Shown: positions 20,818 to 64,000 of the stretch, in pieces
How the letters are laid out: each line of letters opens with the position of its first letter
Position numbering within the stretch: the stretch's first letter is position 1
Source of the DNA: Petrosia ficiformis
Lineage: Eukaryota > Porifera > Demospongiae > Haplosclerida > Petrosiidae
Direction: 5' to 3'
Assembly: GCA_947044365.1 (NCBI GenBank)
Contig: OX345640.1
Span: 2,964,001 to 3,028,000, forward strand
DNA length: 64,000 bases
Program-made: the position numbers and the translations under genes
The notes under the pieces: model-generated
What the model was told of the DNA's origin: nothing
Seen by the model: only the letters and a program-made list of their open reading frames with translations
Database searches by the model: none

Positions 20818-34443
<13,626 letters not shown>

Positions 34444-44093: not shown

Positions 44094-47000
44094 ATGAGCA
44101 GTCAATCTGAAGATAATCTAGATCAGACTCATTATTCTGATACTGAAGCTAAAGGAGATGCAAGTGAATCCATCAAGGATGTTCATACAAAACCACAAAA
44201 CCAAAAGTCAAAATACTCCTCATCACAAACACAAACAAAAAAACGGAAGGTAAATGGAAACTTGTGTTCTCTACTATTATTGTAATTGCAATTTAATTAA
44301 AATTGAACAACTTTTGGTTAAATGGATCAATTCACATTTTAGTCTGTCATCTGTTGTTTTGATTATGGCATAAACAACAAACCCTAAACATTTTCAGGTT
44401 CTACCTCTAAACAGATATGCATATGTCAGTTTCATAAGTGTGACTGGGCATCAGGTATACATATTATATACATGTATCAATAACTTAAACATAATTGAGC
44501 TAAACAATTAACAGCATCACATCACATTCGACCTTATGATCAGGTGGTATATTTGTATAACTCTTTTATGCAGTTTCATTACAAAAAATATACAATATAT
44601 AATATATTTTCAGACCACTGGGAATGAAAGCGATAAGAAAATGAGTGAACTTCAACAAGCACCACCTTTTTTTACTCATACACTCTCAGATTCGTCTGAC
44701 TCTTCTCGTTGCACATCAGGTAAACTTTTGAAGCTGCTTTATATAATGCACTTATTTAATAATATGTTATGTTATAATGTATAAATTTGCAATCACAGCA
44801 TGAAAGGTTGTCAAATGAGGTTCAAACTAACCTCAAAGCTCTTACTAAGTGTTATATTATAATGGCATAAACGAATGTCCCAGTAGGCAGCGAGAAGAAA
44901 CTGGTTACCTTATAATTTCTAATATAGGCACCTCCCCAATATAAGCGCCCCTTTTGGTACTGCAATATTTTAGCCTGCTCTATTATTAGGTACCAGCTTT
45001 TGAATAAATTTTTGACAGCGCCTATTCTCACTTTCGATAGATGTAAACAAGTTGTTTTAAACCAGAAAAGTTGCCAATAAAGTATATACTGCATACCCAC
45101 TTGAGTTGCATTACCATGAAAGGAAAGAGTAACACACTCTATATTTGTTAGAGTACAGCCAACTCTACAGTTGGCTGTACTCTAACTTATACATACAAAT
45201 GTAGGTATAATTACATAAATAATAACTTTTATTATTTATAACCAATTGTTGGCCATGTTACAATAGAATTATAAACTAAAAGTCGTAATGCCTTACCAAA
45301 AATGTTTTAGCTATAGTTAGCTAACTAGAACAACACTTATATATATACCATGCAAATATAACCTCTCCTTCTTACAAATTGCCAAAGTACATGTATATTG
45401 AATTTGAATAGGATTACGATCTTAATGAATAGATCATACTACAGTTCAGTAATGATTTTATTATTCCTTCTTTTTAGTGACCTGTACACCTCGTGAAATA
45501 CATATACAATTTTCGGCTGGGTCGATGGTTCCTGTTAAACGAGCTTTACTATCTGTAGCTGGATTACCAGGATGTGATAAATCTACATCCTTGATGACAA
45601 TGCTTGATGGGGTAGTTCCACGTTCAAGAGAACCACCAATAGCACCTCTCGGTTTTCTGAGTGCTAATGATGGCATGCCATATTGTGAATTAACAGCAAG
45701 TGTATCCGCACAACATGAGCTACCAGTGTATTTAGAAGCTGCCAAGAATACATGTTATATACATGCAATGCAGTGCTCTATCAATAAATATTTCCACCGA
45801 CACCAGCAGCAAATAGAGAAGTTTGAAACCGCGCCCTCAAAGGTTGAACTCTTCAAGGATGAAGACTTGAATTCACATTTTAGTCTCATATATCAACGTT
45901 TGAGTGATAATCATACAAGTTCAATACAGCATCCTGAGCAGAAAGCAAATCCCAGTGGTCTTGTTGAGATCAATATATGGGATATAAGAATGAGTAGAAG
46001 TATTTATCATTTTCTACCAGCTCTTTGGGGTCATTTGGACAGAAGCTACTTATGGTTGTTCCTAGATCTTGAGTCTCTTGACCATGATGATAATACACTT
46101 CATCAGTTAGATTCCATTCCTGAAAACGAGTCCTATAAAGATAAGAAGGACAGAGAACTTATAATGAGTTACCACCCCAGTCTGTATTATTTTCTTCGCT
46201 TCATAATGTTGGTTAAGTCGCGAAAGAAAGATCGTGAAAATGTCTGTTCTCTATTTGTAATGCACGAAACAGAGAACCCTGATAAGATTAACAATGCCAT
46301 GGGTATCATAACAGATGCTGCTATGCAAATAGATGTTAAAACCCAAATAAAAGAGCCCATAACACCACTACAACGAAAAGTAAATGATGTTGAAGTTCTA
46401 AAGACAGAATTAGATTCTCTCGTGAACAAAATTCTAAATTCATCAGAAGACATTCCTCTTTCATTTGTGTTTCTTCGTAGTCTCTTTTATGAGCATAGCA
46501 GAATCTACATCACCAAAAATGAGCTACAGTCAAAGGGACATGAGCTTGATATGTCTAATGAGGAACTGAATGACTTCTGTAAGTTTTTCATGTCTTCAGG
46601 CAGTATTATCGATGTTAGCCAAATTGACAACACCTCACCATACGTTATTGTGAAACCAATGAAATTTTTAAAAGAGCTTGATAAGATTTTCTATCCTCAA
46701 TGTGACAGTGACTCACAAATTACTGGATATGGGCTTGTGACAGAAGAGAAAGCAAAAGATATGTTCGGTGAAGAATACAAATTTTTCATGAATGTTCTGG
46801 TATCGGTTGATCTGGCCGTACGCCTAACAGGAAATCAGATCAATTTTGAAGGTACCCTACTGCCTTGTAATCAAGCTTACTATTACGTGCCAGATGTTCG
46901 TGTTATGCCTCCCGACCTGACTTGTGATCCCTCGGCTCTTCATCTACTGATGGACATCAACTGTCCTCTTCGCCATCTGCAAATTTTATTTGTGAATGCT

Positions 47001-50000
47001 TATTTTGAATATAGCACGCAGCCATCAGCTCTTGTCTTGGAAAGAAATAGTCCAGTTAATGTTACCAACTTTAAAACAAAGCTATCTAATAGTGAAAGTG
47101 AGGTTGACATTCGGTTTAGATATCTCGGAAATACGATAGAAATTAATTTTCCTAAAGCTGATCCCCTTGCTGATAAAACCACCTGTGCTGATATTGTACG
47201 TGGATGTAACGAAATGATGTTGAATGATCGTTGGATGAGGACCCCGTATACTTTTGCTATGATGTGCTCTGTTGAACATAAGATTGTAACTGATCCCAAT
47301 CGTCTCCACCATGTTTGTCACATACTACCACATGATGCACACTGTAAGAGTTGTGAGCTAAATGGCAAAGCTAACAAATTTCTTGATCTGTGGAACCAAG
47401 CAACAGATGAGGTTAGTAAAATCTTTAAATTAGACCTGCTTAGCTAGATATAGTTCTTTCATTTCTTTATAGTATTCTGTTCCTCCTTGGAGAAAGTTTA
47501 AAAAAGGTGAGGAATCGCAATGATAATTTATATAATATATTACAGTATGAAGAAAGTGTTATAGATTTAGATCAGTAATAACTTATTATATCTTCCTCTA
47601 TAGTGACTTCTGTAAAAGTGACTTCATCAGAAAGCCTGACAGTTGAAGGTACAGATTGTTATAATTATTATTATGTTATTATTTTAGAGTTTTTATCTAA
47701 TAAAGGAAAAAAATCACGACAAGATAATGAAGAACTAAAAGCTTTAAGAGGTAAGTTTGATTCATAGGCAATAAACCATCACCCCATCATTTTGTAATTC
47801 ATTTATAATACAATAAGTGACAAATAATAGTGCACAATAAAGAGAGTCAAGATAATAAGGAGTTTTTATGGCCCGTAGGGCCATCCCTATAATTGCAAGT
47901 TTGTGTATGAAACAAACAATACTTTTGTTACATGGAATAGATAGAAAAACATTTATGGGCATTAATTAAAACTGTTATAACTTAAAAGACAAAATAAGGA
48001 TATCAATGAAATGTATAATTTGTATATAATTATATCTTACATCTAATCCAGAGAAAATCAGTCGCTGATATAATTCACTCAATTGTTTATCTGAAATTCA
48101 CACAATAAATGCATAAAATTAAGTAAATATAATTTGGACCAAACCTCTCCTGGTATAGCAGATTAATGAATAAGTATCATAACTGACTTCTGAGTCTGAT
48201 GATTGCATAAATGTATATTAACCACAGAAGTCATTTACTATACACTTTGATAATTGATACTGACCAATATGAACAACTAGGCATTTATTTGTTTTCTGTA
48301 GCCTTCCAGGCAGTATTAAAGCAAGTCAGGCATTTATTCAAACAAAGACATTTAGTATCTTTGTTGTTGCAGGCATCTCAATTACCCTCAGATTTTTAAA
48401 TGACATCTTAATAATAATTGTGATTCTGCAATGTAACCTCACCCACCATACAGCAGTGATTTCTACAACCATATGCCATGTCCAGATATTTAATTATTTC
48501 CACTAGCTTTTACCCCTCAACATGTTTGAGGAAATACGGTACATCGAATAAATTTACATGCAAGACTGGAAGATTTTATTCTGCAATTGCACATTTGTGA
48601 CATTTTATGTCTAAATTTGTAATACAAAAATAGCAAATCATGAAAATGTCCAGGTATACTGTATTCTGTTCACCTCTGATCATGAATTAAAAGATGAACA
48701 TTATTTATACTAGTTGTGTGATTTTCTCATAGATCAGCTTAAGAAGACACAATTACAATTGAAAACATTGGAGAAAAAGGTGAAAATGTTGGAATTAAAG
48801 AATAAGGATCTACTACAAGAGAATAGAAAAGCAAATGGTAAGTTTGCAGTAAATACTTTTTGTGGTTATTATATAAAAAATGAACATATTTGAAAAAATG
48901 GACTGTTTTGGAAGGAAGCAATTTTCAATCAAAAGTTTGCATTTAAACTGCTGTTTAGTGCTGGAAACCACTGAAATCTGGTATCTATGCCTAGTGACTG
49001 CTCTTCTTGACACCTAATTCATTGGCTTCCTATACAAATTGCTGAATAGCGAGCATTTAAATGCATACATTTGATGAATTATCATTTGATTTTTGCAAAT
49101 ATTGTCACTCAGTAATGTTGATATACAAAAGATTTCATACTATATGTTTTTGATATACAAGTGTAAACATGCTAGTAAGTGTGGTTGTATACTACAATTA
49201 TTCCACCAAATAGAATGAAATTTGTCTAAATTTCTGTGTGAGCATATTTTAATAGTATCAGCAAAATTATGGATCAAGGAATTTAAAATGCAACACAAAA
49301 TTAATTTCTTTGTGTAATTATTTCTCTCTCAACACAGAGGAACTTGCAGATACACGATCAGAACTTGAGGAATTGAAGAAAAAGTATGAGGCACTAGAAC
49401 ATGAAGCTGAAACTTTAAGAAAAGCAAAAGGTAAGGAAATGAATTAGTTACTATATAGCAAAGCTTTCTATCAGTACTTATTAGAATGAGCAAATTCAAA
49501 CCCAATTATTAATAATACAACTTTCATTAGCCATAAAACTACAGTGTATAACGAGCGCCGTCGGGACAGGACCCTCGCCTACATGGCAAAGTAATACAAA
49601 GCACTACAATTTTTTTCAAAATATAATAAAGTTTGTGTATGAAACAAACAATACTTTTGTTACATGGAAAAACATTTATGGGCATTAATTAAAACTGTTA
49701 TAACTTAAAAGACAAAATAAGGATATCAATGAAATGTATAATTTGTATATAATTATATCTTACATCTAATTCTCAAACAATGAAGAAGTTCTCAAGTCTA
49801 CCTCTAAAGTCTCCGTGTGAAAACGTATTGACTATTGAATCGCCTCTACCACGTGTTTAGTACATGACGCATGCACATACCTGTAGGTGGAGCTAGGTAG
49901 CTTTCTATCTTGCATCAATGGTGGTGTAGTAGCAACCATTACCTCGATTGTTTTTGGTTTGAAGTGTTTCTTGGCTAGCGACAGCCATGAAACAGGATCA

Positions 50001-50694
50001 CTTGTGTTTTGTGTGTCCATATTTATTCTCGTTATCGCCCTTGTTTCATCTTAAAGTTGTGAAACGGTAACTGTGAGTTATAAAAATTGTCATAACTTTA
50101 GAACCAAAAGGTTTTAGAAGAATTCCTATGTTATTTTTTTCCTTGTATAATTTCAAGTCTACCAGTACCCCATTTGAATTGTCAATGTTTTTATTTTTCC
50201 TGAAAAAGTGCTAACAGACACACAGACACACAGACACACAGACAAAACGATTACCGTACCCTTCCACCTACGCTACACGGCGAGGGTAATAATTATGTAG
50301 TTGTGTAACATACAGTTTATTGATTCTATTTAAATGTTCTTATCTATGTGTCATTTTAGATGATATATTAAAGAAATCTCCCGAAGTGGATGATGTCTTT
50401 GATTTAATTAAGGAACACTCGGCCAACTGGTATGATTCCGCTATAGCATTGAAAATCGATGTAAACACTCGTACCACTTTACAAAATGATGGAATGTTAA
50501 CAAATCATGGCAAATTGGAACGCATTCTTCAAATCTGGCGTCAGGCACAGCCATCTGATGTAACCTGGGAGAAGATCCTAGAAGTATTAGAATCAATGAA
50601 GTTAAGAAGAACAGCAGGGGAAGTGAAAAAGTTCTTGGAAAAGCCAAACGTGATTGAGAAATACAGGAAACAGCCAGACTTTGAAACTGTTTGA
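44094..50694 (+). CDS. Gene A: P-loop NTPase-like / coiled-coil / death-fold protein
   Basis: Exons 44094-44249, 44614-44719, 45478-47411, 47473-47506, 47604-47648, 47688-47750, 48733-48837, 49338-49430 and 50360-50694 join in frame to about 956 aa ending TGA at 50692. Order: Ser/Lys-rich N-terminus, NTPase-like core, short linkers, coiled coil, C-terminal death-fold. I do not recognise a named orthologue. The death-fold and NTPase layout recalls innate-immune or apoptosis switch proteins, but no NACHT or leucine-rich repeats are visible. The N-terminal start is uncertain: TTGTTAG|AT precedes the ATG and could be an acceptor of a further upstream exon. Its paralogue is gene B. Confidence 0.85.
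45147..45186. repeat. Perfect 16-bp hairpin
   Basis: GTTAGAGTACAGCCAA and TTGGCTGTACTCTAAC flank an 8-nt loop. It is in gene A intron 2. Function unknown. Confidence 0.8.
45478..47411 (+). CDS. Gene A large NTPase-like exon
   Basis: 645-codon exon. Walker A-like AGLPGCDKST at residues 115-124: the expected Gly before Lys is Asp121, while the paralogue has GCGKS. A hydrophobic strand leads to NIWDIR at 253-258, then YHFLPALWGHLDRSYLWLFL, a WD-containing block placed like a Walker B or G3 motif. Later blocks conserved with gene B include IPLSFVFLRSLFYE, FCKFFMSSGSIIDVSQID, YVIVKPMKFL, ITGYGLVTEEKAK and LTCDPSALHLL. It ends with a CxxC pair (Cys710, Cys713). The Asp in the P-loop may abolish nucleotide binding (inference). 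Confidence 0.85.
47473..49430 (+). CDS. Gene A linker and coiled-coil exons
   Basis: Five short exons. 47473-47506 (YSVPPWRKFKK) and 47604-47648 (TSVKVTSSESLTVE) have exact-length counterparts in gene B. 47688-47750, 48733-48837 (QLKKTQLQLKTLEKKVKMLE...) and 49338-49430 (SELEELKKKYEALEHEAE) form a heptad coiled coil, likely for oligomerisation. All boundaries except the first are phase 1, so exons can be skipped without frameshift. Confidence 0.85.
47895..48047. repeat. Dispersed 140-150 bp repeat, copy 1
   Basis: The segment from AAGTTTGTGTATGAAACAAA to TATATCTTACATCTAAT recurs almost unchanged at 49629-49771, in another intron of gene A. Copy 1 has a small extra block (TAGATAGAA). Confidence 0.85.
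49629..49771. repeat. Dispersed 140-150 bp repeat, copy 2
   Basis: Near-identical to 47895-48047. It sits inside a larger GC-richer insert (about 49545-50285) bounded by CGAGCGCCGTCGGGACAGG and CTACACGGCGAGGGTAATAA and containing a (CACAGACA)n run. Confidence 0.8.
50360..50694 (+). CDS. Gene A death-fold exon (C-terminus)
   Basis: Encodes about 110 residues: DDILKKSPEVDDVFDLIKE, then ANWYDSAIALKIDVNTRTTL, then GKLERILQIWRQAQPSDVTW, EKILEVLESMKLRRTAGEVK and YRKQPDF. The Trp-Tyr helix, the LxxxLxxW helix and the VTWEKILEVLES helix follow the six-helix death-domain pattern used for homotypic adaptor recruitment. It ends the protein. Confidence 0.8.
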
Positions 50695-50869
50695 CTTCTT
50701 TCAACTGAACCCATATTTTAAGAAATTAATAATTAATTTTGTAGTTTTGCTTACAGTAATTCATAACACATTACAGTTATAAAATTAAGGAGTTTTTTTG
50801 TTGCTCTATTTAATTAGTAAAGATATTGTTATTAATTTTAATGAGGGTATTACCTATACCGGGCACAAT

Positions 50870-51010
50870 GCGCAATGGGTACGTACGCATCAATTATAAC
50901 CACGCCCACCTTGATCAAATTCTATATGCGAGGGCGCGCTGGTTCGCGCGTCGCTCTGTCAATTAACGGGCGTGGCGCGTAATATTAACGCGTGCTCGAG
51001 CTCTGCTGTG
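50870..51010. other. CpG-rich patch between gene A and the pseudo-segment
   Basis: GC and CpG are far above the surroundings (GCGAGGGCGCGCTGG, CGGGCGTGGCGCG). It may be an old promoter or part of a mobile element; no gene could be attached to it. Confidence 0.4.
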
Positions 51011-51469
51011 TAGCTTATAGCCTGAAATATATCATCCCTAAGTTCTAAAACATCCTTTAAAAGGTAAACAGAGTAGATAATCAAAATAATAACTATAATA
51101 GGCTGATCTGTTTCAGGCATGATAAAGTTAGCCGAACTGGTGTAGTAATTAGGCTGAACATCCTAGTTAATTAATTGTGTACTTTGTATTATAGCCCTGT
51201 TTTTAAGGTATTTATTGAGATCCCTTTTGGCTGGTCTTTTTGTTAGGATTTGTATGTATCTTTATGTTGTATCTAGATGTATTCTTATTAGATGGAGGCC
51301 TGCTCCTTATTTTCTTCCTTATTTAAGTTCCTTGTTGTGTTGTCAGTTCACGACAATAGATATTTTAGTCAAGAAATACGGTCTTTCAAGACGCCCCTTA
51401 GTTACTACAGCTGGACACCACAAAGCAGTCATAGGGATACTTTTTTTCTCTATTTATATATCTTGTTTT

Positions 51470-51945
51470 TCTTACAAAATGAGTTACTACCTCCATCACA
51501 ATGTATGCCATCACAGACTCTGAAGATGGGAATGGGTCCTCTTGACAGAAAACATCTTCTGGATCATCTCAAAAAACAGGCTCAGGTCAGTAAGATCCTT
51601 AATATATATACACATACCCATACATATAGTCCTTCATACCATGAGTAAGACAGACACATAACCCATATAGTCATTTGACTCAGATGCACACATACCCATG
51701 CATACGGTCCTTCATACCATAACTCAGACAGACACATCCACCTGCCTCATACCACTTTACACAATGATGGACGGTTAACAAATCATGGCAAATTGGAACA
51801 CATTCTTCAAACGTGGGATCAGGCACAGTCCCCTGATGTAACCTGGGAGAAGATCTTAGAAGTATTAGAATCAATGAAGTTCATGAAAAAGTTCTTGGAA
51901 AAACCAGATGTGATAAAGAAATATCGCAAAAAGCCAGACTTTTAA
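51470..51945 (+). pseudogene. Mosaic pseudo-segment: copied tropomodulin exon 2 fused to a death-domain fragment
   Basis: 51478-51585 is a copy of tropomodulin exon 2 (NELLPPSQ...LDRKHLLDHLKKQAQ) whose acceptor AG has become AA. It continues into copied tropomodulin intron minisatellite (CATACCCATACATATAGTCC) to about 51745. The sequence then switches without a gap to the second half of a death-fold exon (51751-51945: TTLHNDGRLTNHGKLEHILQ...), which ends TAA because GAA became TAA. Inclusion of intron sequence shows DNA-level duplication, not retrocopying. Confidence 0.85.
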
Positions 51946-52450
51946 ACTGTTTAACTTCTTTCAACTGAACACGTATTATATGAAATTAATTTTGTATTGT
52001 TTTTTACAGTAATTTATAATCCACACCCGTTTGTTAATAAAAATTAATAGTTTGTTAAACCATGTACACAAGGTGCAGCTAATGTGATAATCATGAATAT
52101 ATTATAGAGAATGTTGTGGTTAGTATGGTGTACTGCTTTTTTTGTATTTGCTGTTGGAAGTGTACTAGATAACTGAGAACAATCCTCACATGTATACGAA
52201 AATGGTACACTATAATTGAACCAAGCACAGTACTTTAGTGTTTTGCTCATCATGTGCAGGTAAAAAGCAGTTACACTAGTGTGCATGTGGGTTTCTGTAA
52301 AAATTAATGGTAGAGTTCTGATTAAGGTGGTACTAGGGAGTGGGCGGATGCGACTCCAATCAGTTTCAAAATGGAATATTACATAGATCTGGTAACTTTG
52401 CTGTTGTTACTACCGAGGATGAGCAAAGGAAGTGTGATGCGTACGGATAT

Positions 52451-52525
52451 GGGATTGGTCTGATACGCTCGCGTTCGCGCGAGACTATAAATAGGTGTGG
52501 TTGTTGTAGCACTGAGTACCTCTCT
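52451..52525 (+). promoter_or_regulatory. Core promoter of gene B
   Basis: An inverted CCAAT box (ATTGG, 52454-52458), a CpG palindrome (CGCTCGCGTTCGCGCGAG) and a TATA box (TATAAATA, 52486-52493) lie in textbook order. The TATA box is 33 bp before the proposed ATG at 52526, so the 5' UTR would be very short. Confidence 0.6.
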
Positions 52526-55500
52526 ATGGCAGCAAGTCTTTCACCAACTTTAGTGAGTTTCAACGTGGTCAATAATCAATACTAGATACCTTCCCCTTAT
52601 TTCATTTAGGCATATTTAAAGTCTTTCAGCTCGAGGAAATGGCAACAAATCTGCAGGTGAGGAGATAGTGATAATGAAATGTATGCACTTAAATAGTACA
52701 GTATATGCATGGAAACAAGATGTATGGTGGAGCTTATTATTAATTTTACTCTGTAACAATGTCATTATACTTCAGTCAGTACAAAGTATCATGACATTCA
52801 AAGTAGTATTCAAAACACTAGTGAAATAGTCCAATACATGTACTAGCTTTTTGACTGGTATTAGTCACTAAGGAATAATATTCACAAAATGTAAGGAAAC
52901 AAGTAATGGTGTACCAGTAAGAGATTTTACCAATATTCTGATAAACTGATAATAATTACTTTAGATATGTTACCAATAACCTATACCAATGCGATATTAT
53001 ATATATACCTTCTGGTTTCTGATTTTTTTAACAGGTCATTTTCTTTATACTTATTAGTATCATAAAAGCATTAATGATGTTGTAATCATAGGAAATGACA
53101 TTGTTAGTACAATATTAGTTACATATTTCAAAAACAACAAATACCGATACTAGAAATAATTACCTTACTGAATTACTGATTATTGGTGCATTACCAGAAA
53201 CAAGTATCAAATATATTTGAAGAGCTTGTCTCTGTGATGAAGATTCATAATGCAGTTATTTAGTTTGGTTACTCTCGAATCAGAAAAAAACTTTATTAAA
53301 AATCAAAGTTACTCACTGTCTTCTTCAGTGTACAACAAACAAAAATGAAAATGGAACAAGATAGGGTGACAGGTGCTATGGTGATAAGTCATTATCACAG
53401 TATTGATTAGTATGTGTAAATGAGATAGACCTGAGTCTGAGGTGATGATGATCAATGTTATAATAATGTGTCATTGGATAGGTGCTAAAGTAAGTTACCT
53501 ATCTCATTTACACATAATTTACTGATTAGTACTTGTCATCTTAATTTCTTGTTGCATTTTCTTTTTTGTTTGTTGTATATACACTGAAGAAGTATAAGTA
53601 ACTGTCAAAACGTTTGAGTTTTTTTCTGATAAAGAGTAACCAAACTACATAAGTATTAAATATTATACTATTCAAACTGCAAATACTATATAGATCTATA
53701 ATTCCTAAGCCACTTCAGGAAATTAGTTCCCCCAATTTATTGCACACAATTTAGTTACATAAAAACAATTACAATTTCTCTTAGACAAATTCAATTTGTG
53801 GTAATGAAACTGATCAAGACAAGAAAATTAGTGAATTTGGACAACTATCTTTGCCATTCCCATCAATATATAATTTTGGTGGGTCAACATTCACTCCTCA
53901 ATCAGGTAAGCCTCTACTATTGAGCATTGTTATAAAATATAATTATTATGTTATATTAGAGAGTAAACACTGCAAAAATTAAATCATTAAAAATAACCTT
54001 TTTGTTGGTTAGTTGCAAGGAATAGTCAATTTAGATTGTCAATTGTCATAGAAGATGTTGTGACTACATGCATGTATGTTACTATAACATAATGTGCACC
54101 AAGTATTAGAAGGTATAAATTAAATTATGTGTTTGAGGGTTTACAAACCTTTTTGATTGCCAATGTTGGCCATATACAATTACATGTACTTTAGTATAAA
54201 TCTTTGACATGAAATATGAGTCGACAGCACCCTAAAATTATAGTGATTCAAATATAATTAGTACAAAGTATCTGTAGCAGTAGATGTATGTATTCCGAAC
54301 AACCAACTAATTGTTAAATCTTGCAACTGTACTAACCACTAAATAGTTTTTTTTTTTGCAGTGCTGTCAGACATCTATCTGAATTAGCTGTGGCATCTAT
54401 ATCATCACTAAGTGTATAGTGTGGTAAACGTATATAAAGCTATACCAGAAGCTAGAAAGCTAATGAACAAAACAATTAATATTCATTACATGGCATCCTG
54501 TTTCTATTTACAAACAACATAATGAAAAATAAATGTATAGTGCTATATTAAGATACCTATGCTGCAAAAACAGAATAATTAAAATAACTACACTGCAAAG
54601 CTAAAATTGTTAAAATAACTATTCGTTATTCGTTAGTACAGTTGCAAGGAAAAATGGAAATTGTAATTTAATTGGTCATGTAGGTTGTTATGACTGCATG
54701 GTGACATAATATGTACTTGTACCACTCATAATGTAATAATTTCAGTTCAATTACCTTATATATACTGCCTAATAGAGAAGCAGAATAAATGTTTTAATTA
54801 AATCATTGTTGGTTTTCCTAACCTTTCTTGTGCATCTAATATGAGATATTAGACATGATAATTGGTACATATATATAATTATCTTTAAGCATGCAGTCAT
54901 AACAACCTGTATGACTGACCAATTAAATATTAATTTGCATCTTTGCAACTGTGCTAGCTCATGCACTTATTATTTTAACAATTCTATTTTTTTCAGTGTA
55001 ATTTAGTGTTTAGTACAGTTGCCAATTAGTTGGAGATATGGTGCCATAGATATACTTTGTACTAATTATATTCAATTAGTTGAAGCACTATAATTTTAGG
55101 GAGATGTCTACTCATATTTCATGTCAAAACTTTTGTATAATTTATACTAAAGTACATGTAATTGTATCTGGGCATCAAAAGGATTTGTAAACCTGCAAAC
55201 ACTTGTTTTAATTCTTTCAATATTTGATGCACATTATGTTGTAGTATGTCATGCATGTATTTTCATGACAATTGATAAAAAAAATTGAGGTTCATGCTAT
55301 TCCTTGCGACTGTACTAACCAATAAAATGGTTATTTTAATGATTTAGTTTTTACAGTTTATATAATGTTCAATTCTTATCTTCTATCTACCTCCATGTAG
55401 TGACATGTAAACCTTGTGAAATACGTGACCTCTTTTTGTCTGGCTTAAAGGTTCCTATTAATCGAATTCTACTAACTGTAGCCGGTTTACCAGGATGTGG

Positions 55501-57244
55501 TAAATCAGAATCTTTGATGACAATGCTAAATGAGGTAGTTACTACTGCAAGAGAGTCATCAATGAAATCAATGGCACCTCTGAGTTTTCTAAGTGCTAGT
55601 AATGGCATGCCTTATTGTGAATTAGCAGCAGCTGTATTACCACATAAAGAGCTAATGTATTTAGAAGCAACCAAGAATACGTGTTACTTATATGCAATGG
55701 AATACTCTATCAATGAGTATTACCACGATCTCTCTCAACAGATTGAAAAGTTCGATAACTCAGGCCTAAAGGATAAATTCTTCAACGACAACGACTTGGA
55801 TTCACATTTTAAACGTATATTTCAAGATTTGAGTCATAATCATGAAATGATTTCATCCGCAGCACCCTCTCCCATTGAGTGGCAAGAAATAATTCCGAAT
55901 GGCCTTCTTTTGATCAATATTTGGGATGTAAGAATGAGTAAAAGTATTTATCATTTTCTACCAGCTCTATGGGGCCATTTGGATAGAAACTACTTATGGC
56001 TTTTCCTAGATCTTGAAAGTAAGCTCAACCAGCTGCCTTCCATTCCTGAAAATGAGTGCTTTAAAAATAGAAATGATCGAGAACTTTTAATGCGTTACCA
56101 CACCAATCTCTATTACTTTCTTCGCTATACAATGCTAGTTAAATCACACAAAGGAGATCGTGAAAATATCTGTTCTCTATTTGCAATGGGAAATCGTGAT
56201 GGTATTTGCAATGTTGAGGATGACATTAAGGATGCTGCCAAAAAAATGGGTGTTAAAAAATCCATAAGAGAGCATATCACATCACTGCAGCGAGATGTTG
56301 ATTATGTCAAAATTCTAAAGGAAGATTTAGATTCTCTTGTGAATCAAAGTCTGAAGTCATCAGAGCATATTCCTCTTTCATTTGTGTTTCTTCGTAGTCT
56401 CTTTTACGAGAATAAAAGAATATACATCACTAAAAATAAGCTGCAATCAAAGGGGCATGATCTTGGTATGTCTAATGATGACTTGAATAACTTTTGTAAG
56501 TTTTTCATGTCTTCAGGCAGTATTATCGATGTTAGCCAAATTGACAAAACCTCACCATACGTAATTGTAAAGCCAATGAAATTTTTACAGGAGCTTGATA
56601 ACATTTTCTATCCTCGATCTGACATTGACTCACAAATTACTGGGTATGGACTTGTGACGGAAGAGAAAGCCAAAGCTATTTTTGGCCACGAATATCAGTT
56701 TTTCATGGATGTCCTTGTATCAGTTGACCTGGCCATACAACTAACAGGAAGTCAGATCGATTTTGAAGGTACCCCACTACCTTGTAATCAATCTTACTAT
56801 TACATGCCAGATGTTCGTGCTATACCTCCTGACCTGACCTGCGATCCTTCAGCTCTTAATCTACTGCTAGAAAACGACTGTCCTCTTTCTCATCTACAAG
56901 TAGTTTTCACAAAACCATACTTTGCCAATGAGCAGTCATCAGTTCTTGTTTTAAAACGAAATACTCCCATCAATATTACAAACATTAGAACAACATCATT
57001 CAATAAGAGCAAGAATGACTTTCAATTGCGATATCTTGGAAATGCAATAGAGATTCGTTTGTCCAATACTGATCCACTTGCTGATGACACTACCTGTGGC
57101 GATATTTTACATGCATGTAACGAAATGATGATGAAAGATCGTTTGCTCCAAACAAAGTATGCCTTCATTGTGATGTGTACTGGTCAGAAGAATACCAATC
57201 ATCTCCACTATAAACATCACAAACTACCATTCAATGACCAGTGA
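52526..57244 (+). CDS. Gene B: NTPase-like paralogue of gene A, reading to an in-frame TGA
   Basis: Exons 52526-52552, 52630-52656, 53785-53905 and 55401 onward join in frame (MAASLSPTL-LEEMATNLQ-TNSICGNETDQ...) to about 672 aa, stopping at TGA 57242-57244. It has an intact Walker A, AGLPGCGKSES (86-96), and NIWDVR at 231-236. The rest of the core matches gene A block by block (IPLSFVFLRSLFYENKRIY, SSGSIIDVSQID, VIVKPMKFLQELD). The TGA sits exactly where gene A has Cys710. After it the frame stays open for 22 codons to a donor at 57310. The two first small exons are inferred from phase and the upstream TATA box. Confidence 0.8.
53258..53668. repeat. Foldback element in gene B intron
   Basis: The left arm AGTTTGGTTACTCTCGAATC and the right arm GATAAAGAGTAACCAAACT are inverted. 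A second inner pair (GTGTAAATGAGATAG with CTATCTCATTTACAC) lies inside. Confidence 0.75.
54000..55330. repeat. Nested foldback elements in gene B intron 3
   Basis: 54006-54335 and 55013-55320 are inverted relative to each other (GTTGCAAGGAATAG with CCTTGCGACTGTACTAACC; ATTACATGTACTTTAGTATA with TATACTAAAGTACATGTAAT). A second foldback (54630-54957: TTAATTGGTCATGTAGGTTG with GACTGACCAATTAAATATTA) sits between them. Confidence 0.7.
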
Positions 57245-57520
57245 GAAAGATGTAAGCAGAATAACAGATCTAATGAATTACTTGAATTGTGGAATAAAGC
57301 AGCACGTGAGGTTAGAGTAGTATAGAAACTTTAAATTAGACTTGAATAATAATTGTTTCTTTCATTACATAATTATAGAATAAGATTCCTAATTGGAGAT
57401 CGTTGCCGGAAGGTCAGTGATGATATGGAATGAATATATTGAATTAATAATAACTTAGTATATCCATTCTTCTAGTGACTTCTATAAGATTGTCTTCATC
57501 AGAAAATTCAGCTTTTAAAG
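57245..57520 (+). CDS. Gene B exonic sequence beyond the TGA
   Basis: The large exon continues in frame (57245-57310, RSNELLELWNKAARE) to GAG|GTTAGA. It is followed by exons 57379-57412 (NKIPNWRSLPE) and 57476-57520 (TSIRLSSSENSAFK), which have exactly the lengths (34 and 45 nt) and phases of the gene A counterparts. Preservation of splice sites and frame suggests the TGA is recent, is bypassed, or is a sequencing error. No equivalents of the next two gene A coiled-coil exons were found before 60555. Confidence 0.65.
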
Positions 57521-57563
57521 GTTTGTATGTTATACTATCATTAAGTATATTCTTATATAATTA

Positions 57564-57795
57564 TAGTGTTGTTCTAATTCTTTGGTACTGGAACTAAAAT
57601 TACTTATAGGGCTACTTTATATTTTAGTTCTAGTATAAAAACTATATAGAACTGATATATATTAGAACTAAAATTAATTTTCCTTAAATACTATAAAACT
57701 AAAATTAACATACTTTCAATACTAATACTTAATTAACACTATAGAACTAAATTATTTGAGCTAATGTACTAGAACTAACTAGAACTAAAATGGAC
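57564..57795. mobile_element. Short relative of the TAGTGTTGTT element
   Basis: Starts TAGTGTTGTTCTAATTCT and is filled with AACTAAAA motifs like the ends of 41916-43562. The right boundary is unclear. Confidence 0.5.
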
Positions 57796-57984
57796 TAGCG
57801 TTGCTAATATCATAGAAACATATCACAAATACCTATTCATATCTAGTGTTTTTATGACTACCAACACCTTCTAGATGGCCAAAGATTGTCGTTAAGGTAG
57901 AGAACGTGCGAGTGGCAAAACTGGCAAAATCTGCTTCATATTATTATTATGATTATTTTTCAGACAAATCATTTTTTTGTTTGT

Positions 57985-58280
57985 TTAACTATTACAATGA
58001 TTCTAGCACAATTCCAGTCACATTCATAGTAAAATTCTGGTCTTAAAGTAGCAAGATGATATCTTCAGATACTATGAAAGAAGACAGTCTCAACTACTAC
58101 AAAGATTTGATCTAAAATCAGACACCATTTTCATTAATCAAGCCACGTGGTATTTAATTGCGCATGCACATTTCTATACTCGAAGTGCTGGAATCATAAT
58201 AGAATTTGTGAGGAAATACATTCTTATAATAATGAATATAAAACTTTTAAGCCATTGTATAATAATATCAGAGAGTACGG
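57985..58280. repeat. Dispersed duplicate, copy 1
   Basis: CAATGATTCTAGCACAATTC, AAATTCTGGTCTTAAAGTA, GATATCTTCAGATACTATGA and AATACATTCTTATAATAATG occur in the same order at 59565-59885. No gene is recognised here. Confidence 0.8.
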
Positions 58281-59159
58281 TAGTACTCTCTATGTAGGTA
58301 TGGCCCAGAAAACAAATGGCCGCCCATACATTTCAATTGCAAATGGTAAGCTGAAATCTCTGGTAATGTATACGGATAAGTTATAATATATATAACATAC
58401 AATATATTGAGTATTTTTATAACTAACAATACCTTTTAGATGCCCAGAAATCTTCGTTAAAGTATAGAACCGGCGAGTAGCAATACTGGCAAATCTTCAT
58501 ATTCACTATTATTATTCTTCTGCTTCTTTTTCAGAAAAATAGATTTCTACGTTTCTGGAGCTATTAAAGTAGTTGTAGCACAAATACAAATATATTTTAA
58601 GTTAAATTCAGGGAAACAAATTTTGTACTGTTCTGTTTCTTGACCTAGACAACGAATACTTTCAGCCACTACAGCAACCTACTCACGATAGGACGCCATT
58701 TGTAATAAACCACACCCTTTAAAACACACCCATTAAATTTAAAAGAATTATGGATGTTGTCATGGAGATGGTGGGCTACAAGTTGTATAAAGTATTATAC
58801 ATATCATCACTTCCACAAATAGCAAAATTTATAAATCCAGATGATACTGAAACGGTCCACGTACAAATCATTAGTATAACTGAATAATGTAGAAATTTCA
58901 TCAATTATGCCACTAATTCATCATTGTATACGAAAATAATAAAAAACATTTTTAAAAATGAAAGAGTATGTAGGGATATATGTTATTATACTGAGTCATT
59001 TAAAAATAGAATCGAAACAAGAATAATATAGAAACATGTTCAGAAATGAAGGAGAATGTAGGAATTGTAATAACAAATAATTATAATATTTCAGTAAATT
59101 TTGAATACCGTCTCCTGGACACCATTCCTGCAGAAAATAGTCATCATGTATTTGATCAA

Positions 59160-59495
59160 AAATTTACCTGAATGATTTAAAAATAGAATCAAAACAAGAA
59201 TAATAAAAAAAACATTTAAAAAAATGAAAGTATGTAGTTATATCAAAACCGAAAAAGCATAGGAGGAACAAGATGGCTTTGGCAACAAAATGAAATACCA
59301 CTTCCACATAACAACCCTACATAAGTATACATAGCTAGAGTAAAGGTAAAACACAAAAAAGCGGTACTTATGTATGGTTGTTATGTGGAAGTGGTATTTC
59401 ATTTTGTTGCCAAAGCCATCTTGTTCCTGTGCTTTTTCAGTTTTGATATATATCCCTACATACTCCTTCATTTTTTAAAATGTTTTTTATTGTTC

Positions 59496-59510
<15 letters not shown>
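59160..59510. repeat. Foldback element family C
   Basis: Arms of about 110 bp (left: GGAACAAGATGGCTTTGGCA, CACTTCCACATAACAACC; right: GGTTGTTATGTGGAAGTG, TGCCAAAGCCATCTTGTTCC) surround a centre near 59320-59365. A (TTA)n run follows. Confidence 0.85.
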
Positions 59511-59535
<25 letters not shown>

Positions 59536-59564
59536 TTCCAGAAAATTTGTTTTTGTTTGTTTGT

Positions 59565-59885
59565 TGAAATATCACAATGATTCTAGCACCATTCCAGTCA
59601 CATTCATAGTAAAATTCTGGTCTTAAAGTATCGAGATGATATCTTCAGATACTATGAAAGAAGACAGTCTCAAAGATTTGATCTCAAATTGGATGCCATT
59701 TTTCTAAGTGTATTCATAAGTGTATTCATTAATCGAGCCACGCGAAATTTAACTACTCATGCGCATTTGTATCTCGGAACATGGAAGCTGAAAAGGTGGA
59801 AGTGCTTGTAATCATAATAACATTTGTGAGCAAATACATTCTTATAATAATGATTATTAATATTAAAGCCATTGTATAATAATAT
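59565..59885. repeat. Dispersed duplicate, copy 2
   Basis: Matches 57985-58280 with small indels. Both copies follow a TTTTTCAG/TTTTCCAG-GAAAAT-type junction and a TTTGTTTGTTT run. Confidence 0.8.
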
Positions 59886-60129
59886 TTTATACTATGATAA
59901 GCATTGGAATACTGAATGGATGACACAGTGACTACATTACTTCTTGTAGGACTGCAGACAGTGCTGTAAGTGAAATAGAGAATATACATCATATGTAAGT
60001 GAAAGAGAATGATAATCAATACATAAATACAAAAGACTGACCTTCATTGATGAACAAATTTTAATGCATTTATGATTTCATAATGATATATAGTATTTCT
60101 GCAATCTACAAAACCATATTCACACCATG

Positions 60130-60450
60130 CATTCAGAAAAAAACAATGAAAACAAGAATAATAAAAAACATTTTCAATAAAAGTGAAAGAAGATGTAGGG
60201 ATGTCAAAACCCAAAAAGCATGTAAACAAGGTTGGGAAGCTAACAAACAAACCCATATAACCCTACATAAGTACAGCTCTTTGTATTTTGGTTTATAGAG
60301 GTGTAAGTACTTATGTAGGGTTATATGGAAGTGGTTTGTTTAATTTTGGGTCCTATGTTAACTTCCCATCATTGTTTACATGCCTTTTTGGGTTTTGACA
60401 TCCCTACATCTTCTTTCACTTTTATTGAAAATGTTATTCTTTTAATAATA
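60130..60450. repeat. Foldback element family C, second copy
   Basis: Left arm AAGTGAAAGAAGATGTAGGG and CCATATAACCCTACATAAGT; right arm ACTTATGTAGGGTTATATGG and CCCTACATCTTCTTTCACTT. The centre is near 60285-60300. Confidence 0.85.
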
Positions 60451-60554
60451 CAACATTCATTAGCAATAAAACTACAGTGTATAATAATTATGCAGTTGTG
60501 TAATATACAGTTTATTGATTCTACTTAAATGTTCTTATGTATGTGTCATTTTAG

Positions 60555-60889
60555 ATGATATATTAAAAAAACTTCCCGAAGTGGATGATGTCTTTGATTT
60601 AATTAAGGAAAAATCGGCCAACTGGTATGATTTGGCTATAGCATTGAAAATTGATAAACACACTCGTACCACTTTACACAATGATACACGGTTCACAAAT
60701 CATGGCAAATTAGACCGCATTCTTCAAAAGTGGCATCAGGCACATCCCTCAGATGTAACCTGGAAGAAGATCCTAGAAGTATTAGAATCAATGATGTTCA
60801 GAAGAACAGCAAGGGAAGTGAATAGTGAGCATTTAAATTCAAGGAATTATATACCAATTCGTTGGCTTCCTATACAAATTGCTGAATAG
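60555..60889 (+). CDS. Death-fold exon of the gene B region, altered C-terminus
   Basis: Acceptor TCATTTTAG, phase as in gene A. It reads DDILKKLPEVDDVFDLIKEK, ANWYDLAIALKID, GKLDRILQKWHQAHPSDVTW and KKILEVLESMMFRRTAREV, then departs from gene A. The last helix is replaced by NSEHLNSRNYIPIRWLPIQI, translated from a repeat that also occurs in neighbouring non-coding sequence at 60890, 61030 and 61800. It stops at TAG 60887. Whether it is spliced to gene B, to the downstream ZU5 exons, or dead cannot be told from sequence alone. Confidence 0.6.
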
Positions 60890-61316
60890 TGAGCATTTAA
60901 ATTCAAGGAATTATATACTACTGTATACTGTACTGTTCAGCTCTGATCATGAATTAGAAGATGAAAATTGGTATCTAAAATGCCGCTCTTCTTGACACCT
61001 AATTCATTGGCTTCCTATACAAATTGCTGAATAGCGAGCATTTACATTCAATGAATTATGTCCAATGACTCCAATCATTTGATTTTTGGAAATATTGTCA
61101 CTAATGTTGAGTTAAATTTTGTAGCTAATGATAATATACAAAAGATTTCATACTATGTTTTTGATATACATGCTAGTAGGTGTGGTTGTACACTACAATT
61201 ATTCCACTGAAATTTGTCAAAATTTCTTTAATAGTATCAGCAAAATTATGGATCAAGGAATTTAAAATGCGACACAAAATTAATTTCTTTGTGTAATTAT
61301 TTCTCTCTCAACACAG

Positions 61317-61577
61317 AGAAACTTGTAGATACACAATCAGAACTTGAGGAATTAAAAAAAAAGTATGAGGCACTAGAACATGAAAATGGTAAGTATTATT
61401 CTGAGGAAGTCGATTAGTTACTATATAGCAAAGCATTTTATCACTTGGAATGAGCAAATTCAAAACCAAATTTATAGTTCATTATTAACACAACTTTCTC
61501 AGAGTTATTCAAGAAGAAAGAATCCAGAATGTCACAAGAAATAGAGTGGAAAAACAAAGAGAACAAAGAATTTTGTG
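61317..61577 (+). CDS. Coiled-coil cassette 1 (two exons)
   Basis: 61317-61388 (KLVDTQSELEELKKKYEALE) and 61503-61577 (LFKKKESRMSQEIEWKNKEN) are both phase 1-1 exons. They are near-copies of the gene A exon at 49338 and of cassette 2. The donor of the second exon, TGTG|GTTAGT, is usable. Confidence 0.65.
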
Positions 61578-61974
61578 GTTAGTCTTGTACTGTATATATA
61601 CACTTCAATATTTGATACAGACAAATACAAACAACCATAATACAGCCTAAATTCATAATGCAAATCATGAAAATGTCCATGTATACTGTATCACTGTATA
61701 CTGTACTGTTCAGCTCTGATCATGAATTAGAAGACGAAAATTGGTATCTAAAACGCCGCTCTTCTTGACACCTAATTCGTTGGCTTCCTATACAAATTGC
61801 TGAATAGTGAGCATTTAAATTCAAGGAATTATGTCCAATGACTCCAATCATTTGAATTTTGCAAATATTGTCACTGATGTCGATTTAAATTTATTAGCTA
61901 ATGATAATGTACAAAAGATTTCATACCTTGTTTTTGATATACAAGTGTAAACATGCTAGTAGGTGTGGTTGTAT

Positions 61975-62750
61975 ACGTATAGGTTATACACCGAGGTAAA
62001 GGTTTCTACTGGATTTATCAAACCGAGGGCCGAAGGCACGAGGTTTGATAAATCAATAGAAACCGTACCGAGGTGTATAACCGTCTTCTACCATGAAACG
62101 CGCGCGAAATACAGTAACTAAGCAAATCTTTGCGCGTGGCAACAGTATACATAATTTCACTTACATATGGATATAGTGTGGGTTTCTGTGGCTCTTTAGA
62201 CAAGTAACTGATCAACAGTTCAATCGCAAATGACCAAAAGAGCTCTACATGTGGCAGACTTCCGGCTCCTCCTCTAAGCTGTATATTAAGGTGTGGTCTT
62301 CCAACAGCAATCGCGGTATCGATCGATCGCGATTGCTATCAAGAAGCTAGCGCTGCAAGAACAGCCCCACCCAACTCTTTTGGAATCTCATACAAGAGGA
62401 AGCAATAGAGCTCTGAAAGACCTCAATCAAGCTTACAAACTGGTGTCAGATTTTCAAAAAGAACATGCATCACTATGAATTACAGCTAATAATTATAGCT
62501 ACAGTTGTATATAGTCATCATGATTGTTGTTTTATGTCAATTATTATAATTATTATTTATGAAGTAAATTGACAACTATGTAACTTGAATTTCATTTCAA
62601 TCACTGACGGGAAAATTTTACTGGGAGGTTTAATAACATGTTATCAAACCTCCTGGTAAAGACCGGGAGGTTTGATAACACATTTAGAAACCTCATTATA
62701 AGCAATCTGATTGGTCAATTCAATCTAGTCATGGTAGAATTACATTTATT
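61975..62750. mobile_element. GC-richer insertion with hairpin ends
   Basis: The host sequence GTGTGGTTGTATAC...ATTCCACCAAATAGAATG, intact at 49183, is split here. The insert starts with a hairpin (GGTTATACACCGAGGTA...TACCGAGGTGTATAACC) whose inner arms TGGATTTATCAAACC and GGTTTGATAAATCA flank GAGGGCCGAAGGCACGA. A second hairpin (GGAGGTTTAATAACATG, TGTTATCAAACCTCC) lies near the right end. A 61-codon plus-strand ORF at 62293-62478 (ALKDLNQAYKLVSDFQKEH) has no recognisable domain. Confidence 0.65.
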
Positions 62751-62885
62751 CCACCAAATAGAATGAAATTTCTTTAAATTTCTGTGTGAGCATATTTTAA
62801 CAGTATCAGCAAAATTATGGATCAAGGAATTTTAAATGTGACACAAAATTAATTTCTCTGTGTAATTATTTCTCTCTCAACACAG

Positions 62886-64000
62886 AGAAATGTGTAGATA
62901 CACAATTAGAACTTGAGGAATTAAAAAAAAAGTGTGAGGCACAAGAACATGAAAATGGTAAGTATTGTTCTGAGGAAGTCGATTAGTTACTATATAGCAA
63001 AGCATTTTATCACTTGGAATGAGCAAATTCAGAGCCAAATTTATAGTTTATCATTAACACAACTTTCTCAGAGATATTCAAGAAGAAAGAAATCATAATG
63101 TTACAAGAAATGGACAAACAGAACAAAAAGTTTAGACAGAGGTTGGAGTCAAAGCTGGAAAAACGAAGAGAAGTACGACAAAGTGAAGCTGAAGTTCAGT
63201 TCAACAGTCTTATTCCTAAATCAGGTTTGAAAATATTAGTGTAATAGCACCATAACAAATGTTTCTCTTTCTTTATACATCACAGATCATTACCTCAAAA
63301 ATGTCGTCGTTGCTAAGGAAACTGCATTTAATATTGTAGGAAATGGACCACAGTCACTGAACTGGGAAGAGTATGGATTAAATATTCATTTTTCACAAGA
63401 CACCATTTCTCCGTCAGATACCTGTGAAATTGTTTTAAAGGCTCTAGTTGGTGGCGAATTTACATTTCCAGAAGGAACAGAGCTTGTAAGTGCTGTATAC
63501 GCCTTTTCTTTTTCAAAGAAACTCCTTCAACCAGTGAAGTTGGAAATACAGCACTGTGTATCATTGAAGAGCAAAGAGCAGTTCAAGTATATTAGTTTTG
63601 TTGAAGCACCATCCAGATTTACAGTACCGCCATATGGGTTTCAGCAGCTAGAGGGTGGAGAGTTTTTCATGGAAAATTGTTATGGATGTATCACTTGCAC
63701 TCCACATTGTCTAATAGGTATTGTATTATACCTTTTCAATCTACCATTCAGTTTATCTCCAATCAGTACTACTGAGAGTAAGTTTTTATGCTTGTATACA
63801 TTTTTTGTAAGAAATTTTAACTTCATTATCACAATTATGGTTATTGTATCTTCTATTTCTAGACCTATCAAGTAACTTCTCTATAATATTATACCGGAAT
63901 GTAGCAGTGTTTATTACATGCCACACATGTACTTGTAGTAACTGTATTCCAACTGCATGTATACATGGTATGACTTGCAGAAAAGCCTGGGTTTTATTGA
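62886..64000 (+). CDS. Coiled-coil cassette 2 and ZU5-domain exons (gene runs off the window)
   Basis: Exons 62886-62957 (KCVDTQLELEELKKKCEAQE), 63072-63224 (IFKKKEIIMLQEMDKQNKKF...SEAEVQFNSLIPKS), 63286-63717 and 63863 to the window end join in phase 1. The 143-codon exon 63286-63717 is a ZU5 domain: WEEYGLNIHFSQDTISPSD, IVLKALVGGEFTFPEGTELV, SAVYAFSFSKKLLQPVKLEI and FVEAPSRFTVPPYGFQQLEG. ZU5 domains occur with death domains in UNC5, PIDD1 and ankyrins. The next exon (NFSIILYRNVAVFITCHTCT) is open to position 64000, so the gene continues right. It may be the 3' part of gene B or a separate third member. Confidence 0.75.

Follow-up and report, generated by a model that had tools for sequence, protein, structure and literature searches.

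A probable tandem array of Roco-related genes with Death exons in a sponge genome

Layout of the array and the large exons

The DNA studied, hereafter the window, is a stretch of 64,000 nucleotides from the sponge Petrosia ficiformis (G000:C5:2964001-3028000), and all genome-wide searches were carried out in the same sponge genome (191 Mb, 29 contigs). The best explanation, of reasonable though incomplete confidence, is that Roco-related genes stand here in a tandem array, of which the window holds a part. The exon elements of the array all lie on the plus strand of the window, between 44094 and 64000; coordinates above 64000 continue the window numbering beyond its end. The two paralogous large exons of the original prediction are present on this strand, at 45478-47411 (644 amino acids, open) and 55401-57310, with an identity of 63.5%. 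The array extends beyond the window with a third Roc-COR exon (90920-92860), a Death exon (96180-96503) and further ZU5 exons.

Gene 1 consists of 10 predicted exons, which 9 GT-AG introns join into a single open frame of 975 residues, in the order short N-terminus with a basic cluster, Roc-COR, coiled coil and C-terminal Death, the latter being the last exon:

44094..44249, plus strand: first coding exon with start Met and a basic KKRK cluster at its end; GT donor, phase 0; 83% identical copy at 80462
44398..44454, plus strand: small optional exon, the frame being kept with or without it; AG/GT borders, phase 0-0; prediction only
44614..44719, plus strand: linker exon; AG/GT, phase 0-1; 89% identical copy at 80981
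45478..47411, plus strand: Roc-COR exon; AF2 model, Foldseek and VIA matches, hhalign
47473..47506, plus strand: short linker exon; AG/GT, phase 0-1
47604..47648, plus strand: short linker exon; AG/GT, phase 1-1
47688..47750, plus strand: linker or start of the coiled coil; AG/GT, phase 1-1
48733..48837, plus strand: coiled-coil exon, unlike the repeated one; AG/GT, phase 1-1; sub-threshold Pfam coiled-coil families in the joined protein
49338..49430, plus strand: coiled-coil exon, the first of three copies; splice borders and copy comparison
50360..50694, plus strand: terminal Death exon with stop codon; Pfam Death 20.9 bits; 50% identical to a Death exon scoring 37.6 bits

Five of the six introns 3' of the Roc-COR exon are in phase 1, so that an exchange of modules is possible. 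In the joined protein, scanned with Pfam from 44094 onward, neither a kinase nor leucine-rich repeats (LRR) were matched, and the model of gene 1 likewise showed no ankyrin repeats.

The gene 1 Roc-COR exon gave no Pfam match even at E 1, and a search of PDB sequences with the exon alone returned 0 matches. Where these sequence searches failed, the family was revealed by fold comparison and by intermediate sponge exons. The G-domain fold of the exon was predicted with good confidence (AF2 model, pLDDT 83.4, pTM 0.87), and the Foldseek and VIA matches of this model were LRRK1, LRRK2 and CtRoco, together with Rag/Ras-like G domains. The LRRK matches reach exon residues 640-644, covering nearly the whole exon. 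The approximate extents of the domains are residues 1-323 for Roc, 324-460 for COR-A and 461-644 for COR-B. Additionally, hhalign against sponge Roc-COR exons (12 exons hand-picked from retrieved loci) gave an E value of 4.4e-15, and COR-A was recognized by Pfam in 7 of 42 family members. The exon is predicted to have a Roc fold with COR directly after it, as in Roco proteins, and is by predicted fold and profile a member of the Roc-COR (Roco) relatives, related to LRRK2. The family had originally been described as lacking a recognized name; its placement with Roc-COR is the outcome set beforehand as decisive against that description, which was abandoned. A Viral_helicase1 match of the second large exon was rejected (14.6 bits for a cut-off of 21, P-loop part only).

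The state of the nucleotide switch was analyzed in an alignment of 42 members, comprising both window exons and 40 of the 44 database homologues (leaving out P0001 and P0005, which are the window exons themselves, and the partial P0015 and P0042), for the motifs G1, G3 and G4. Of the 37 members whose P-loop region is fully covered, 14 have an intact P-loop GxxxxGK[ST]; among members covering the respective positions, the lysine was kept in 38 of 40 and the serine in 40 of 40. The critical P-loop glycine was replaced in gene 1 and in the third copy, and kept in gene 2. The glycine of switch-II DxxG (G3) was missing in 42 of 42 members, and G4 was not conserved across the alignment. Since the switch-II glycine is gone and the P-loop mostly gone, GTP cycling was probably lost, and the sequences point to a branch that is probably a divergent pseudo-GTPase. 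The branch is named Roco-related, and not Roco GTPase, because the nucleotide-binding motifs, a defining feature, are not conserved in it; the original term NTPase suits the predicted G-domain fold but is doubtful, as most members lost the nucleotide-binding motifs. Near the C-terminal end of the exon, an almost invariant histidine (41 of 42) and two cysteines (39 and 38 of 42) were observed, which, speculatively, could bind zinc.

Death exons, gene 2 and the ZU5 region

Further elements of the array in the window are the following:

51751..51945, plus strand: Death-exon remnant, residues 1-38 of 111 and six internal residues gone; alignment of Death exons
53785..53905, plus strand: gene 2 linker exon preceding Roc-COR; AG/GT, phase 0-1
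55401..57310, plus strand: gene 2 Roc-COR exon with canonical P-loop and in-frame TGA at 57242-57244; open-frame and splice inspection
57379..57412, plus strand: gene 2 short linker exon; AG/GT, phase 0-1
57476..57520, plus strand: gene 2 short linker exon; AG/GT, phase 1-1
60555..60824, plus strand: gene 2 Death exon without C-terminal end; Pfam Death 21.5 bits; GTGAGC after 60824 is a possible phase-1 donor, by inspection
61317..61388, plus strand: coiled-coil exon copy 2; splice borders and copy comparison
61503..61577, plus strand: coiled-coil-like exon; AG acceptor, and GT donor after 61577 by inspection
62886..62957, plus strand: coiled-coil exon copy 3; splice borders and copy comparison
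63072..63224, plus strand: coiled-coil exon preceding ZU5; splice inspection
63286..63717, plus strand: ZU5 exon; 214 homologues and at least 150 genome copies

At least three death-fold exons, one of them broken, had been proposed; three are present, but two of them are damaged, namely the remnant at 51751-51945 and the exon at 60555-60824, in which the C-terminal 22 of 111 residues are absent. Pfam Death did not match the remnant. The Death type of the window exons was confirmed via homologous exons passing the Pfam cut-off of 22.6 bits: the third-copy Death exon (96180-96503) reached 29.9 bits, and two exons on contig C1, downstream of Roc-COR and 50% and 35% identical to the gene 1 Death exon, reached 37.6 and 36.7 bits. 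In a search of PDB sequences with the Death profile, FADD was the top match at only E 0.083, and 10 of the 13 rows were FADD.

Gene 2 is probably a decaying copy, because its Roc-COR exon carries the TGA near its end, its Death exon is truncated, and the ratio of nonsynonymous to synonymous substitution rates (dN/dS) between this shortened exon and the gene 1 Death exon is 0.985. An intact open relative of the gene 2 Roc-COR exon, P0002, is found on another contig (77% identical). In the third copy a first coding exon, a linker, an open Roc-COR exon and a Death exon follow one another as they do in gene 1. Between 45478-47411 and 90920-92860, dS falls from 0.199 over Roc to 0.043 over COR, which suggests gene conversion or recombination inside the exon. 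Around gene 2, imperfect palindromes at about 59260-59460 and 60165-60420, noted by eye only, are perhaps similar to miniature inverted-repeat transposable elements.

As originally listed, one coiled-coil exon is present three times (49338-49430, 61317-61388 and 62886-62957). The ZU5 exon was also borne out: it scored 14.8 bits with Pfam ZU5, below the cut-off of 21, yet homologues at about 50% identity pass (P0145 and P0152, 26.6 bits each), and its closest homologues fall slightly short (P0045, 20.5 bits; P0047, 20.8 bits). Precomputed Pfam ZU5 annotation was present on 4 of the best 120 of the 214 ZU5 homologues, and no match was obtained with the ZU5 profile, built on an alignment of 48 of these 120, against PDB. 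A second ZU5 exon follows 4.4 kb after the first, and this pair recurs 51 kb downstream (G000 C5:3027288-3082354), the first exon being 93% identical; a large unit may have been duplicated around the pair. Downstream of the window, UPA-like exons were seen by eye, with no Pfam UPA match.

The ZU5 exon probably belongs to a neighboring gene, because gene 1 and the third copy terminate at their Death exons; a fusion with gene 2 is possible. The likeness to UNC5 and PIDD1 that had been pointed out holds for the proximity of ZU5 and Death exons; one protein with both is possible for gene 2 by its exon phases. Gene 1 differs from these proteins in having no LRR. In PIDD1 and FIIND-type proteins, ZU5 ends in an HFS self-cleavage motif. 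No HFS was seen at the ZU5 end in the 25 of 50 alignment rows inspected, one of which is incomplete; HFS triplets do occur elsewhere, close to the beginning of both the window ZU5 exon and the second one.

Relatives in the genome and in known systems

The original view of a tandem, modular and expanded family with Death agrees with the third copy and with the relatives found. Database searches with the large exon gave 44 matches, two of them the window's own, and 65 matching stretches were found in the same genome. The sole homologue with a source name is an uncharacterized Amphimedon queenslandica protein (LOC109590928, P0170; 32% identical). For COR-A, Death and ZU5 the best 150 scored exons were taken in each case. 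These counts, like that of NACHT below, are lower bounds; they refer to exons and not to genes, and might be raised by retained haplotypes. COR-A exons above the Pfam cut-off number at least 150 (best 150 of 357 candidates), one with an internal stop; 146 of these 150 fall in open frames that span 400 residues or more (table read by hand) and 91 have another COR-A at most 50 kb away. Some of these loci are LRRK-like genes with LRR and kinase. Window-type exons also number at least 150 for Death (best 150 of 263 candidates) and for ZU5 (best 150 of 367), and Pfam ZU5 itself was found at 2 of 35 candidates. By comparison, all 103 NACHT candidates scored, of 249, were matches. A genome search with Pfam Roc (136 matches) also catches small GTPases and was not used.

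COR-A and Death exons are paired genome-wide: 22 of the best 150 COR-A exons are followed within 5 kb, on the same strand, by a window-type Death exon (shift control: mean 1.05, maximum 5, 2000 shifts). For ZU5, the corresponding number within 5 kb was 3 of the best 150, a value within the range of the shift control (mean 1.8, maximum 7, 1000 shifts). When compared with the best 150 of 1013 generic Pfam Death candidates, for which no shift control was run, COR-A exons had a Death candidate within 20 kb downstream in 12 cases and upstream in 7 on the same strand, and in 1 case on the opposite strand.

In the close branch of the window, 22 of the 65 stretches cover the full length with an identity of at least 36%; 15 of these lie on C2 between 0.33 and 0.83 Mb, and 2 of the 22 have an internal stop. 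The neighborhood of this branch was counted with 33 of the 65 stretches, the rest being shorter or below 36% identity, and with 21 of the at least 150 ZU5 places, on the contigs or near the places concerned. Within 5 kb downstream, only 4 of the 22 had a Death exon and 1 a ZU5 exon (2.8 kb, same strand); thus, the C-terminal module of the close branch seems variable.

Three other loci were observed. In L033 (G000 C1:60555000-60564999), a Roc-COR exon, a caspase frame (Peptidase_C14, E 4.8e-17) and a Death exon follow in this order on one strand and are possibly one gene. L032:3812-7204 is a DAPK1-like frame of 1131 amino acids with ankyrin repeats, Roc and COR-B (both under the cut-off) and Pfam Death about 1 kb downstream. 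L040:6829-9622, on the minus strand, has LRR and ZU5 in a single frame with an adjoining Death exon, resembling PIDD1.

The Roc-COR tandem is common to Roco proteins, of which vertebrates have four, and the DAPK1 group is marked by a Death domain, with a kinase ahead, whose activity is altered by GTP binding to Roc (PMC6337361). Gene 1 resembles DAPK1 (Roco group 3) in having Roc-COR, then a C-terminal Death, and no LRR; it differs in that no kinase or ankyrin was found in the model, the Roc motifs are worn, and a coiled coil stands between COR and Death. With LRRK1, LRRK2 and the bacterial/archaeal Roco proteins CtRoco and MbRoco2 it shares the Roc-COR-A-COR-B fold along nearly the entire exon, but at 8-16% identity in the fold alignments, and no LRR or kinase was found in the sponge gene, which has pseudo-GTPase motifs and a Death output.

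The brown-algal ROCO candidate immune receptors, as PMC11378527 describes them, are likewise a large exon-shuffled Roco expansion with a proposed immune role; they are LRR-ROC-COR proteins, 9-47 genes per species, with COR-A (PF16095) in 18 of 111, whereas in the sponge the C-terminal module is Death or another one, and COR-A exons number at least 150 (a six-frame count, not annotated genes). Sponge NLRs, which include forms with Death domains, are similarly an expanded multi-domain family, but their NACHT ATPase and LRR (PMC12909245) were not found in gene 1. Moreover, PMC8195603 describes AP-GTPases with COR that serve as switches in systems of conflict and of apoptosis, and reports that TRADD-N/Death is expanded in Amphimedon. 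No report of a sponge Roco expansion was found in the titles and abstract openings of the open-licence literature. The sponge Roc-COR expansion looks very large, and parts of it may already be known, because animal ROCO domain combinations are catalogued (PMC11378527).

Proposed function and alternative explanations

Computation supports the Roc-COR fold, the single open frame of gene 1 and the pairing, across the genome, of COR-A with window-type Death exons. By analogy, the most likely role of the sponge proteins is that of a scaffold: the gene 1 protein would be an intracellular signaling scaffold, which COR and the coiled coil would hold as a dimer or larger assembly. This assembly could cluster the Death domains and recruit Death-domain partners, e.g., the caspase-linked paralogues, acting either as a scaffold in a fixed state or, paired with GTP-competent Roc-COR paralogues, as their regulatory subunit or decoy; an immune or cell-death role would be its likeliest use. 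On a broader scale, it is conceivable, though more doubtful than not, that sponges have a second large intracellular system for recognition or death signaling beside NLRs, with the Roco switch in place of NACHT, in which GTP-competent Roc-COR proteins with Death, caspase or ankyrin pair via COR with pseudo-GTPases like gene 1, diversified by tandem birth-and-death and module swapping.

Several results weigh against Roco-related genes with a Death output. The exon joins throughout the array are predicted only, the joined gene 1 protein had no Roc or COR match with Pfam at E 0.1, and the family profile found no Roco chain among PDB sequences, only one ribosomal protein (E 0.86). The Death exons at 50360-50694 (E 4.1e-4) and 60555-60824 (E 2.6e-4) score below the Pfam cut-off. 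Of the two structural checks originally proposed, that of the large exon gave a good G-domain fold, but the model of the Death exon, built with four sequences, was not of usable quality (pLDDT 55.3); Foldseek found nothing for it at E of 0.001 or less, with FADD or TRADD death-domain entries in 6 of 12 rows. Among the 4 close full-length exons followed by Death (list of best 150), three are those of the array itself. Furthermore, gene 1 yielded no sensor domain, and the dN/dS of 0.55 between the Roc-COR exons of gene 1 and the third copy indicates moderate constraint only.

A worn Roc that still binds nucleotide, with GTP or ATP gating the exposure of the Death domain, would fit the retained P-loop lysine and serine, the whole P-loop in 14 of 37 members including gene 2, and the effect of GTP binding to Roc on DAPK1 kinase activity (PMC6337361). 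The switch-II glycine, kept in 0 of 42, the lack of a conserved G4 and the replacement of the critical P-loop glycine in both gene 1 and the third copy make such a working switch rather unlikely. The large exon could also be a NACHT-type ATPase with winged helix, making the proteins NLR-like STAND receptors by descent, given the P-loop followed by helical domains, the Death partner, the tandem expansion and the Death-bearing NLRs of sponges (PMC12909245). This identity was rejected and is very improbable, as Pfam found NACHT neither in the exons of the window nor in the joined gene 1, the significant folds are Roco and COR-A is matched, while NPHP3_N matched weakly in only 2 of 42 members (best E 0.0091). 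The absence of visible NACHT or LRR had been correctly foreseen as far as the gene 1 model goes, and the NLR counterpart suggested with it stands as an analogy only.

Gene 2 might instead continue from Roc-COR through the shortened Death and the coiled coils into ZU5, giving a Roco-Death-ZU5 protein. The possible phase-1 donor after the shortened Death, next to coiled-coil exons that accept phase 1, speaks for it, as do P0002-P0004 and the ZU5 homologue P0045, listed on a 290852-base contig that is probably one and the same, and the other close-branch Roc-COR exon with ZU5 2.8 kb downstream. On the other hand, the gene 2 Roc-COR exon contains the TGA, gene 1 and the third copy stop at Death, the next listed ZU5 past the third copy is about 21 kb off (the intervening stretch being partly unread), and COR-A/ZU5 pairing does not exceed the shift control; this fusion is of low probability. 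That the array is mostly birth-and-death debris without current function is less probable still: the gene 2 TGA, the Death remnant, the Death-exon dN/dS of 0.985 and the stops in 2 of the 22 close exons suggest decay, but the gene 1 frame and the third-copy Roc-COR exon are open, their dN/dS of 0.55 shows some constraint, and the annotated Amphimedon relative exists.

The proposed array of Roco-related genes is of interest given the importance of Roco proteins in Parkinson's disease and cell death. If expressed, the sponge Roc-COR modules with lost motifs would be natural experiments, and the family would be a candidate early animal immune repertoire overlooked by NACHT-based surveys. The branch is easy to miss, the gene 1 exon being without a Pfam match and Pfam ZU5 finding 2 places where the exon itself finds at least 150.

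Outside the array, the window contains on its minus strand, at 7144-12957, an open frame of 1938 amino acids rich in IQ-like motifs, which we take to resemble ASPM. Repetitive, minisatellite-like stretches open in one frame on both strands lie at 21481-22167 and 23998-24705, and a tRNA-Ser (GGA) is predicted at 33303-33378 on the minus strand.
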